The translations under genes were made by a program, and so were the position numbers. DNA of 64,000 bases from Amedibacillus dolichus DSM 3991 (GTDB lineage: Bacteria; Bacillota_I; Bacilli_A; Erysipelotrichales; Erysipelotrichaceae). This document shows positions 31,005-35,141 of this stretch, in pieces (the first letter of the stretch is position 1; each line of letters opens with the position of its first letter). The stretch is taken from positions 248,001 through 312,000 of the forward strand of contig NZ_DS483477.1 in NCBI RefSeq assembly GCF_000154285.1. The letters are read 5' to 3'. The notes under the pieces are model-generated. The model was not told the DNA's origin. It searched no databases and worked only from the letters and a program-made list of their open reading frames with translations.

Positions 31005-31607
31005 ATGAAAAAATATGCTTATATTCGTGTTTCAAGTAAAGATCAAAATATTGCAAGGCAAGTAGAGGCAATGAAAAGTATTGGAATTTCAGAAAAAGAT
31101 ATGTTTATAGATAAACAATCCGGTAAAGATTTTTTTCGTGAACAGTATCAATTACTATTAAAAAAACTAGAATCAGGCGATGAGTTATATATTAAATCAA
31201 TCGATCGTTTGGGGCGAGATTATGACGAGATTCAGGAGCAATGGCGTTATCTTACGAAAAAGATTAACATTGATATGATTGTGTTAGATTTTCCACTTTT
31301 AGATACCAGAAACCAAGTAAATGGGATTACCGGAAAGTTTATCGCTGATTTAGTTTTACAGATACTCTCTTATGTGGCACAAGTAGAACGAGAAAATACT
31401 AAACAAAGACAGGCTGAGGGTATACGGATTGCTAAAGAAAAAGGAATACAATTTGGAAGACCGCCTATACCTATTCCAAATGAATTTGAAGAAATTTATC
31501 AATTATGGAAAGAAAATAAAATCAGTAAACGTAAAGGAGCAAGATTGTTAAATACAAATCATAATACTTTTACTAATTGGATAAAAAGATATGAAAATGA
31601 TCGTTGA
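31005..31607 (+). CDS. Serine recombinase (resolvase/DNA invertase family)
   Basis: The 200-residue small serine recombinase has the catalytic N-terminal domain (YIRVSSKDQN with Ser10 and Arg8; SIDRLGRDY; VERENTKQRQAEG with the E-helix) and a C-terminal helix-turn-helix (about 148-195: GRPPIP, ISKRKGARLLNTNHNTFTNWIKR). Size and layout match Hin/Gin/Pin invertases and TnpR resolvases. TAGGAGG lies 7 bases before ATG 31005. A pair of perfect 27-bp inverted repeats begins only 30 bases after its stop, in front of a surface-protein gene, which favours an invertase role. Resolvase of a lost transposon is the alternative. Confidence 0.9.
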   Translation: MKKYAYIRVSSKDQNIARQVEAMKSIGISEKDMFIDKQSGKDFFREQYQLLLKKLESGDELYIKSIDRLGRDYDEIQEQWRYLTKKINIDMIVLDFPLLDTRNQVNGITGKFIADLVLQILSYVAQVERENTKQRQAEGIRIAKEKGIQFGRPPIPIPNEFEEIYQLWKENKISKRKGARLLNTNHNTFTNWIKRYENDR

Positions 31608-31636
31608 AAGTACTAGATTCTCATGTAATAAAATGT

Positions 31637-31663
31637 AGACATATATTGCCATAGAAAGTAGAC
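31637..31663 (+). repeat. Left 27-bp inverted repeat of the candidate invertible segment
   Basis: The repeat reads AGACATATATTGCC followed directly by ATAGAAAGTAGAC. It is perfectly repeated in inverse orientation at 31803-31829. Confidence 0.95.
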
Positions 31664-31802
31664 TTTTGTTGCCAGTGTTGTTAAAATTATTAGTAGAGAT
31701 AATATGAAATGTATTTAAGCTTTTACAAATATAAATATAGAGAAAAACAGATATTTATCTGTTTTTCTCTAAAATTAGTCTTGTTATCCAATGGGATAAA
31801 AT
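31664..31802. promoter_or_regulatory. Candidate invertible promoter segment (139 bp)
   Basis: Between the two inverted repeats lie overlapping divergent promoter-like sites: plus strand TTGTTA (31678-31683) with TAATAT (31700-31705), spacer 16; minus strand TTGTAA (31728-31723) with TATTAT (31704-31699), spacer 18. A 15-bp palindromic hairpin (31739-31770) stands between these promoters and the surface-protein gene in the present orientation. Inversion would remove the hairpin from that path and point the better minus-strand promoter at the gene. The segment as sequenced is thus probably OFF; this is inference. Confidence 0.6.
31739..31770. terminator. Strong bidirectional hairpin inside the invertible segment
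   Basis: AGAGAAAAACAGATA faces its exact complement across two T. The five-A/five-T tracts give terminator-like features in both directions. Confidence 0.7.
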
Positions 31803-31829
31803 GTCTACTTTCTATGGCAATATATGTCT
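31803..31829 (-). repeat. Right 27-bp inverted repeat of the candidate invertible segment
   Basis: Exact reverse complement of 31637-31663. It lies 73 bases before the start of the surface-protein gene. Confidence 0.95.
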
Positions 31830-31901
31830 GCTTTACTTACCATTTCACTTATCTCTTAAGATATATTTTGGTTCAAAAATATAGATAAGGAGGGAATGAG
31901 A

Positions 31902-34900
31902 ATGAACCTGACTAAGCGGATAACTGCATGGTTTCTTACACTAGTTATGGTATTGGGCTTGATACCTCAAACTATGTTCGCTCAAGAAATAGCTACTTCT
32001 CCACTTCAATATGAAGCTACACAAGAAATGAATGAAGATAAAACAGAAGCAACGATTTCTATAAAGTTTACAGAAACAGAAACTATTCAGTTAGAAAAAG
32101 TAACATTATCAGATGGTACAGAGAAAGTAGAAGACTTATCAGAGGTTACTTATACTGTATCTGAAAATGGAAAGTATGATTTTAAAGTAAATTATGTAAT
32201 GGAAGGAACACCACAGGAAGAAACAATTTCTGTCGAGGTATCAGGATTAGAAGAAAAGATAAAAGAATTGGTTACAAATCAAAATATTGAATTGGATGTT
32301 GATATTCAGCTAAAAGGTGCGACTTATTTTGATGGACATCCAAATCCTTTTTTTGGAGGAACGAAGCAATATATGATTTCGGATCGTTCCATTATTCCTT
32401 ATAATGGTATGCAATTAATGGAATTAATCGTTGAGATTCCATATCAAGAAGGATTAGAGATACAAGGAATCACGCCTAGTGCCGCAAGCCAATATCCAGA
32501 TCTTTCTAAAGTTGAAAAGGACGATAAAAATAAAAAATGGACATATAGCTTTTATTTTTATAAAAACGGAACATACGAATTTACTATCGATTACATTTTG
32601 AATGGTGAAAACAAAATAACTTCAACCTCTTTTACAGTAGATGGTTTAGTATCGATTAAAGATATTGCAATGCGCAGACATTTAATCAATGAATATGGTG
32701 AGTTTTCAGGATTCCGTTATCAAGACGGTCAATATGTAACTCAAGACATTTTAGCGAAGGAACCGTCTGTGGGTTTTTTTACATTTGGATTGGATGGTGA
32801 TAATGGAACGACAGCTGAATATACGACATCACTTGATGGATTGCAATATCTGAAAAATGCGACAGGGTTATATTTGTATGATTGCAAAAAGCTTGCAGAA
32901 GGAGAAACCATTGAACCTGTTACAGAAGGTTATTATCCTAACATGAAATTATTTAGGGTGAGCAATTTAAACGAAAGACCTAATATGCCTAAATCAGCTT
33001 ACAATGCGGAGTTAGTTACTAAGAGTATTGCTAATATGCCTGCCCTAACAGAACTTGTGATTAATGGTACTGGTTTTTCTGATTGTACAGTGTTTAGAAA
33101 GATTACAGCTGGAAGTTTAGATTACTTGCAAGCAATGGCAAATAATATTGTTTCTTTAGATGGAATAGAAAGCCAACAGAATCTTTCTTCTATCAATATT
33201 GGTCAAAACAAAATTAAATCCATCGATCCATTATCTAAGTTAAATCAAATAAACTTTTTGAATTTAATGAGAAATGAAGTTTTTGATTTAAGACCAATAA
33301 ATGAAAGTTTAAACCAAAAAGCTGTTGCAGGTAACACCGTTTATGGCTTTGCGGCAAGAGAACAAAACATTACTTACGATCGAACCGTCATCACTCCATT
33401 GCAAAATGGTATGTATACAGTTGAATTGCCTATGCCAATCGATATTGATGGATCTTTAACGAACACTTCAAGTGTTAGCTTAAAATTCGCAAACGGAACG
33501 ACAAAGACATACAGCACATCTCAATCTGAGGGTAAAACTTATATTTCTATTCCTGAAGGAGATGTAGACAGTAGCCAAGAAAACCCATTTGAAGGCGCAG
33601 AATTTAAATTTTCGTTCAATAACAATAATGGAGCGGACCCAAGAACCAAAGCATGGTTTACAGGAACCGTAACATTTAAAGCAAGCCCAATTGCGACTAA
33701 CTATCATGTAATTTACGACTTTATTAGTGGAACAAGAGGCAAAAGTCTTCCGCCTGAAATAACTAATTTGTTACCTATAGATTCTACAAAATATTATGAA
33801 GGAGATACAATTACCGCAAAGAACCCAACTCAATTAGAGCTTGAAGTATCTGATGGAGTATGGACATTTGAAGGGTATGACGCTGATAGTAAGACAGCAA
33901 ATGCTAATAGTGCAAATGAAGATGGTAACATTCAATTTACAGGAACATGGATATTTGAAACGAAAAAATACGATGTTAGTTACAAATTCGAATCTATAAA
34001 TACAGATAAAGAAGTCCCAAAAGAAATCTTAGATATGTTACCTACAGTAGGAAGTGTTGAGCATGGGAAAACAGTAAATGCCCCAGAAACTGAATATAAA
34101 GATGTAAAAGTTACAGACGGTGTATGGAGCTTCAAAGGTTGGACACCTGTTAAATATGAGAATGTAACAGGTAATGTAGAGTTTGTTGGTAAATGGGAAT
34201 TTAAGAAAAATGCAAGTATAATCAATCATATTCCAACAATTAGTGCAAGTGATAAGACATTAACGGTAGGAGATACATTTGACCCGTTGAAAGATGTAAC
34301 AGCTAGAGATAAAGAAGATGGAGATCTAACAAAGGAAATCGAGATCTTGAAGAATGAAGTTAATACAAGTAAAGCAAGAGTATATGAAGTTACTTATAAA
34401 GTAACGGATAGCAAAGGTGCTTCAAGTATTAAAACAATCTATGTAACAGTTAATCCGAAGATGGAAGAATTGAATCGTATTCCAACAATTAGTGCAAGTG
34501 ATAAGACATTAACGGTAGGAGATACATTTGATCCATTGAAAGATGTAACAGCAACAGATAAAGAAGATGGAGATCTAACAAAAGAAATCGAGATCTTGAA
34601 GAATGAAGTTAATACAAGTGAAGCAGGAGTATATGAAGTTACTTATAAAGTAACGGATAGCAAAGGTGCTTCAAGTATTAAGACAATTTATGTAACAGTT
34701 AATCCGAAGATGGAAGAATTGAATCGTATTCCAACAATTAGTGCAAGTGATAAGACATTAACGGTAGGAGATACATTTGATTCGTTGAAAGATGTAACAG
34801 CAACAGATAAAGAAGATGGAGATCTAACAAAAGAAATCGAAATCTTGAAGAATGAAGTTAATACAAGTAAAGCAGGAGTATATGAAGTTACTTATAAAGT

Positions 34901-35141
34901 AACGGATAGCAAGGGTGCTTCAAGTATTAAGACGATTAAAGTTACTGTTATAGAAAAGAATATACCGATAATACCAAATGAACCAGATAAACCAAGTAAG
35001 CCGGATACGAACAAACCGGAAGATAATGGAAGCGTTGGAACAGGCGATAAAACAAATGGAGTCTTTTGGACAATGCTATCCATCATTTGTGGTATTAGTG
35101 TTATTGGTGTGTATCGTAAAAAGCGTGAAATAAATCAATAG
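31902..35141 (+). CDS. Large cell-surface protein with LRR, SHIRT-like and tandem Ig-like domains
   Basis: The 1079-residue protein has a signal peptide (KRITAWFLTLVMVLGLIPQ, cut near residue 28), an N-terminal beta-rich region, a leucine-rich-repeat segment (about 310-470; LTELVINGTGF, NLSSINIGQNKIKSID), and two SHIRT-like domains (about 600-690 and 689-768, each with VSDGVWTFEGYD or VTDGVWSFKGWT). Three 83-residue Ig-like DUF5011 repeats follow (776-1018), then a Pro-rich wall spacer, a TGD sorting-like motif, a membrane helix and a KKR tail, so it should be wall-anchored, probably an adhesin. ATG 31902 is 7 bases from AGGAGGG; ATG 31896 is too close. Confidence 0.9.
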   Translation: MNLTKRITAWFLTLVMVLGLIPQTMFAQEIATSPLQYEATQEMNEDKTEATISIKFTETETIQLEKVTLSDGTEKVEDLSEVTYTVSENGKYDFKVNYVMEGTPQEETISVEVSGLEEKIKELVTNQNIELDVDIQLKGATYFDGHPNPFFGGTKQYMISDRSIIPYNGMQLMELIVEIPYQEGLEIQGITPSAASQYPDLSKVEKDDKNKKWTYSFYFYKNGTYEFTIDYILNGENKITSTSFTVDGLVSIKDIAMRRHLINEYGEFSGFRYQDGQYVTQDILAKEPSVGFFTFGLDGDNGTTAEYTTSLDGLQYLKNATGLYLYDCKKLAEGETIEPVTEGYYPNMKLFRVSNLNERPNMPKSAYNAELVTKSIANMPALTELVINGTGFSDCTVFRKITAGSLDYLQAMANNIVSLDGIESQQNLSSINIGQNKIKSIDPLSKLNQINFLNLMRNEVFDLRPINESLNQKAVAGNTVYGFAAREQNITYDRTVITPLQNGMYTVELPMPIDIDGSLTNTSSVSLKFANGTTKTYSTSQSEGKTYISIPEGDVDSSQENPFEGAEFKFSFNNNNGADPRTKAWFTGTVTFKASPIATNYHVIYDFISGTRGKSLPPEITNLLPIDSTKYYEGDTITAKNPTQLELEVSDGVWTFEGYDADSKTANANSANEDGNIQFTGTWIFETKKYDVSYKFESINTDKEVPKEILDMLPTVGSVEHGKTVNAPETEYKDVKVTDGVWSFKGWTPVKYENVTGNVEFVGKWEFKKNASIINHIPTISASDKTLTVGDTFDPLKDVTARDKEDGDLTKEIEILKNEVNTSKARVYEVTYKVTDSKGASSIKTIYVTVNPKMEELNRIPTISASDKTLTVGDTFDPLKDVTATDKEDGDLTKEIEILKNEVNTSEAGVYEVTYKVTDSKGASSIKTIYVTVNPKMEELNRIPTISASDKTLTVGDTFDSLKDVTATDKEDGDLTKEIEILKNEVNTSKAGVYEVTYKVTDSKGASSIKTIKVTVIEKNIPIIPNEPDKPSKPDTNKPEDNGSVGTGDKTNGVFWTMLSIICGISVIGVYRKKREINQ
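34230..34957 (+). repeat. Three near-identical 249-bp tandem repeats in the surface-protein gene
   Basis: Copies start at 34230, 34479 and 34728 (period exactly 249 bases, 83 codons); the third diverges near 34945. They differ at only a handful of bases (for example GACCCG, GATCCA and GATTCG at the same place), including synonymous sites, which shows recent duplication or homogenisation. Confidence 0.95.

Follow-up and report, generated by a model that had tools for sequence, protein, structure and literature searches.

A probable serine-recombinase promoter switch, likely in its ON state, upstream of a surface protein gene in Amedibacillus dolichus

The 64-kb window analysed here (64,000 nucleotides of Amedibacillus dolichus DSM 3991) very probably contains an invertible promoter switch, in which inverted recombination sites beside a small serine recombinase gene enclose a promoter-bearing segment in front of a surface protein gene. 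On the sequence evidence we favour, with a probability of about 0.78, a local phase-variation module that would invert the segment between two AG cores, use a promoter overlapping the recombination site and stand in the ON state in the window. The layout is common to Bacillota homologues, which carry a recombinase, a site, a segment of about 90-145 bp, the inverted site and usually a secreted surface protein. The original prediction had also proposed a serine-recombinase switch before a surface protein, and that proposal is supported by the conserved layout, by orientation differences between homologues and by an inverted segment shared by two of them (L111 and L030). Features are collected in Table 1, and loci compared with the window carry L numbers.

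Table 1 Features of the locus, in window positions
Feature	Position	Strand	Description
Small serine recombinase	31005..31607	+	Intact open frame, 200 aa; Resolvase domain and C-terminal HTH-like part
Outer left site	31624..31651	+	Core AG 31637-31638; TGCCA overlap with inner site; exactly 23 bp outside
27-bp inverted repeat, left arm	31637..31663	+	Perfect repeat, from sequence
Inner left recombination site	31647..31674	+	28-bp dyad, AG core 31660-31661; from family site alignment
Predicted promoter	31659..31687	+	-35 TAGACT 31659-31664 across crossover core; 17-nt spacer; extended -10 TGTTAAAAT 31679-31687; toward surface gene
Putative invertible segment, between inner cores	31660..31806	.	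Homologous segment inverted in L014, same way in L023
Hairpin	31738..31771	.	Terminator-like on minus strand only; not conserved
Inner right recombination site	31792..31819	-	Core 31805-31806 (CT on +); from family site alignment
27-bp inverted repeat, right arm	31803..31829	-	Perfect repeat, from sequence
Outer right site	31815..31842	-	Core 31828-31829 (CT on +)
Shine-Dalgarno-like AAGGAGG	31887..31893	+	From sequence
Surface protein	31902..35141	+	1079 aa; LRR-like, SHIRT x2, Ig-like x3, anchor-like C terminus

The recombinase gene is intact, as had been predicted. Its product matches the Resolvase domain in a Pfam domain search (PF00239, E=1.4e-24), and the nucleophile serine and arginines of the small serine recombinase (resolvase/invertase) family can be read by eye from the sequence as S10, R8, R68 and R71; the HTH_23 match in the C-terminal part is weak and under the cut-off. 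The best solved relatives are Sin/Bin3 (4.8e-30), with Tn3/gamma-delta resolvases, whereas the DNA-invertase structures 3uj3 and 4m6f match at only about 1e-10, so that the protein stands nearer to Sin/Bin3 and the gamma-delta resolvases than to Hin/Gin. A broken recombinase copy in three pieces, about 58-65% identical, was observed elsewhere (L002, G000:C5:97802-98325, minus strand), and no site pair was found around it within L112.

Past the right repeat lies the gene for the 1079-residue protein that the original prediction described as wall-anchored with adhesin-type domains, and its product has a signal-peptide-like start and ends in TGD, a hydrophobic stretch and a basic tail. An alternative start at 31896 would give 1081 aa; the ATG at 31902 is better placed behind AAGGAGG. 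The LRR-like, SHIRT and surface Ig-like domains, from which its function is read, suggest an adhesin. Three tandem 249-bp Ig-like repeats (window 34224-34970), 88-96% identical, occur in the gene, and their copy number could differ between strains. In addition, contig C3 (L009, G000:C3:1-343) starts partway through a further copy of the gene's 3' portion, 98% identical, beyond which the sequence differs; the assembly probably contains only part of this paralogue.

The perfect 27-bp inverted repeat, with arms 139 bp apart, is present as predicted. It is the longest perfect inverted repeat in the window for arms within 600 bp, the next being the 16-bp hairpin of Table 1, and has no further copies in the 2.19-Mb genome with up to three mismatches allowed. 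Its proposed role as the recombination site was rejected: relatives retain a 28-bp AG-core dyad and not the repeat. Alignment of 40 sites gave the dyad consensus TGGCAAAAAAAGT-AG-ACTTTTTTTCCCA. At each end of the window segment, a second site lies 23 bp farther out and shares TGCCA with the first, and the perfect repeat, which starts at the outer AG and ends with the inner AGAC, is a consequence of these two overlapping sites. The 23-bp offset also occurs in L014 and L016 (left) and in L015/L029 (right), and was not found in L023. The recombinase may itself have moved or copied the 23-bp unit.

Strand exchange by serine recombinases takes place at a 2-bp core that has to be the same in both partner sites. 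When 30 site pairs were picked by their half-sites alone, blind to the core, the central dinucleotide (AG, GT, TC, CT or AT) was the same in both partners in 25 of them, with agreement in 8/12 of the pairs other than AG/AG or AG/AA. This agreement, taken with the matching rule, indicates that the 2-bp core marks the crossover point. A search of the A. dolichus genome with up to three mismatches found nothing beyond the window sites, a decayed AC-core module and two poor matches, a yield close to that of the backwards control.

The promoter is placed by its position relative to the core. An extended -10 (at least six of eight matches to TGNTATAAT) lies exactly 17 nt from the motif [T/C]AGAC[T/A], at one end only, in 16/20 AG-core loci, a count that disregards shared ancestry (L039 and L040 are close relatives); 11 of these 16 reach at least seven of eight matches, and every other spacing is found in 0-3 AG-core loci. 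Because the spacing to this motif, which straddles the crossover core, is fixed, the -35 of the promoter appears to be common to the recombination site. A clear -10 at 17 nt is missing in L021, L024 and L041, the relatives with GT, AT or CT cores have no such site-embedded promoter and no common spacing, and the 17-nt spacing test likewise gave none in the L030/L111 pair. Every one of the 20 left sites has T as the first base of the -35, and 16 of the 20 right sites have C, so a flip would presumably alter promoter strength as well. In the window, where TAGACT matches the consensus at only 4/6 positions, both ends have T because of the duplicated 23-bp unit.

The promoter end is on the left, facing the gene, in the window, L020 and L023, and by reading in the plasmid locus L107; it is on the right in 13 loci. 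Like the other family statistics given here, these counts take no account of shared ancestry. The only promoter conserved across the family, TAGACT-N17-TGTTAAAAT, aims at the surface gene in the window, so the sequenced state is probably ON. The predicted ON-state transcript would start near 31694 with a 5' UTR of about 208 nt, which folds strongly (z -3.9) and could influence expression.

In the original prediction the sequenced state was probably OFF, with a leftward TTGTAA-N18-TATTAT promoter (31728-31699) driving the gene after a flip and a hairpin inside the segment acting as terminator. We consider this improbable. The hexamers and the hairpin are indeed present in the window, and TATTAT is kept in L023, but promoter matches are no more frequent than chance would give: eight promoter-like matches were observed around the locus against 7.9 expected, which deprives promoter calls made from the consensus only, including this one, of weight, and a consensus scan by itself was set aside as uninformative. 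Moreover, L023 has GTGTAA at the -35 and a broken hairpin, neither element is visible in L014, and a different promoter is conserved across the family. What stands of the hairpin is its presence; as a conserved working part of the switch it was rejected.

Both orientations of the segment are found, in comparisons between homologous loci. The window, L023 and L014 have collinear outer flanks. Between these flanks, the L023 inner segment matches that of the window without inversion (z 14.8), while that of L014 matches only when inverted (z 3.9, 0/300 shuffles; z 0.7 in the same orientation). The Mediterraneibacter massiliensis segment is inverted relative to the window. The second case involves a decayed module in the A. 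dolichus genome itself (L111, C5 at about 117.86 kb; G000:C5:115000-121000, minus strand), in which AC-core sites accompany what is left of a recombinase gene and an Rrf2-like frame interrupted by stops. When inverted, the inner segment of this module equals that of L030 at 106/107 positions, and the flanks, 68-75% alike, are collinear. The comparison of orientation in relatives that was suggested with the original prediction yields both states as differences from locus to locus, L014 against the window and L023, and L111 against L030.

Inversion in place is the simplest reading of the L111/L030 pattern, and exchange of cassettes is possible there. Extended to the whole family, such an exchange would have the recombinase swap inner segments between modules, with orientation differences arising on insertion. 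This would suit both the 99% identity of the L111 and L030 inner segments against their more divergent flanks and the presence of the module on a conjugative plasmid. We regard it as distinctly unlikely, since inversion is the simplest reaction of inverted sites and the segments of the window, L023 and L014 diverge together with their flanks. Less probable still, and in our view very improbable, is that the locus is a frozen remnant, either with sites derived from a transposon resolvase or as a switch that is defunct in this genome. Two decayed recombinase copies in the same genome could be taken that way, as could a relative at about 52% identity that adjoins a Mu-type transposase on a cfr plasmid and shows the wider family to be mixed in function. 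Several features speak against a remnant: the recombinase of the window has an intact frame, both of its sites stand inverted and undamaged, relatives keep the promoter and the surface gene in the same setting, and the open frames of the window include no transposase next to the recombinase.

In the favoured inversion reading, the recombinase would act on two inverted 28-bp dyad sites through the 2-bp AG core, and the segment would bring an extended -10 of the TGnTATAAT type to 17 nt from one site. The -35, [T/C]AGAC[T/A], would then be composite: its first base would be supplied by the fixed outer half-site, the AG by the core and the remaining bases by the movable inner half-site. In the arrangement of the window, where the -10 end adjoins the left site, the promoter would read rightward through the segment into the surface gene with TAGACT as its -35 (ON). 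Inversion would turn it leftward, so that it ran into the recombinase gene from its 3' end; the surface gene would then be OFF and, in most relatives, the -35 would be a poorer one with C as its first base. An antisense effect on the recombinase gene is possible in this state. We infer that the recombinase flips the segment in this strain and that the promoter is active.

A broader proposal, which we hold tentatively, is that a widespread Bacillota module fuses promoter and site. Recombinase binding would block the promoter that it moves, flips would rebuild the -35 (T in ON and C in OFF in most relatives), and in the closest relatives tandem overlapping sites would allow crossovers to shift a 23-bp unit from one end to the other and give more than two states, which would explain the 27-bp repeat.

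Scanning genome contigs yielded 15 loci whose recombinases are 54-92% identical to that of the window, and whole-genome searches added more; the relatives come from Erysipelotrichaceae, Lachnospiraceae, Selenomonas and others. Most close relatives have an inverted site pair soon after the recombinase gene, with the left site usually 10-120 nt downstream, and many relatives at 50-58% identity were found without a recognisable site pair downstream. The gene that follows usually encodes a secreted protein; SHIRT, Ig-like or Cna-B domains together with a TGD-type anchor occur in several of these proteins. By reading, L028 has a signal-peptidase-like gene in this position. An Rrf2-type regulator comes next after the switch in L030 and the plasmid locus L107, a similar frame was read in L019, and the decayed L111 also has an Rrf2-like frame there. 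In this subgroup (L030, L107, L111 and perhaps L019), phase variation may affect a regulator in addition to a surface protein.

The window falls in a supported clade of 22 rows with 15 AG loci and one AC locus; the idea that each core type forms a single clade was rejected, as the AC locus lies inside this AG-rich clade. L107 is located on the Enterococcus faecalis conjugative plasmid pGTC3 (NZ_KY303941.1), where a recombinase 72.6% identical to that of the window accompanies an AG-core switch with its promoter toward the Rrf2 regulator, followed by an LRR protein. This copy suggests that the module travels. A phage origin was considered and rejected: one IMG/VR relative was found, at 51%, and the site-plus-promoter pattern had no match. 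The recombinase of L023 is frameshifted, so that this copy is probably locked. Site polarity is opposite in L057, L063 and L067 (GTCTAC left, GTAGAC right), around a 144-bp segment.

Because site, core and promoter of the serine-recombinase module are now readable, assembled sequence is enough to predict whether a locus is ON or OFF, and such predictions could be tested in named species, for example Extibacter muris, Mediterraneibacter massiliensis and Beduini massiliensis. The -35 and the crossover site overlap, which would tie transcription directly, and in a testable manner, to occupancy by the recombinase.

Among the closest parallels is Hin/hix of Salmonella flagella, to which the Gin and Cin types are akin, where a small serine recombinase flips a promoter between inverted dyad sites. 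The window shares the recombinase gene beside two inverted sites of roughly 26-28 bp with a 2-bp core and, by prediction, the flipped promoter of a surface protein. Unlike in Hin/hix, however, the recombinase lies outside the segment, the segment measures only about 145 bp and the -35 is inside the site; unlike Gin, the recombinase is by sequence nearer to the resolvases named above. Mpi of Bacteroides fragilis is likewise a serine recombinase that inverts short promoter segments of surface genes. Here, in contrast, the hosts are Bacillota, the site is a different one and every recombinase has its own segment next to it, and the window protein scores 38.4 bits against an equivalog cut-off of 272 for the NCBIfam family NF009949, and so falls outside the Mpi family. 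In promoter architecture, the switch resembles the junctions of IS minicircles, in which a -10 comes to lie about 17 bp from a -35 contributed by a recombination end; those promoters are made by transposase circles and drive the transposase, with no reversible switching of a surface gene.

Within Bacillota, the RecV switches of Clostridioides difficile (cwpV, flg, cmr) are comparable as invertible elements before genes. RecV is a tyrosine recombinase, unlike the enzyme described here, and the flg and cwpV switches act after the start of transcription. The elements upstream of cwpV, flg, cmr and pdcB include some with internal promoters, and the recombinase of the pdcB switch was not identified in that study (PMC9286219). 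A literature search of openly licensed papers, main texts without supplements, returned no description of a serine-linked group of Bacillota switches. Published surveys under open licence, in the parts of their text available, deal mostly with invertible promoters of Bacteroidota and, in Clostridia, with tyrosine-recombinase elements. In one such source (PMC11892184), inverton group 139 of Clostridia is linked to a tyrosine-type recombinase; it resembles the present module as a gut Bacillota inverton with a linked invertase, and differs from it in that the linked enzyme here is a serine recombinase.
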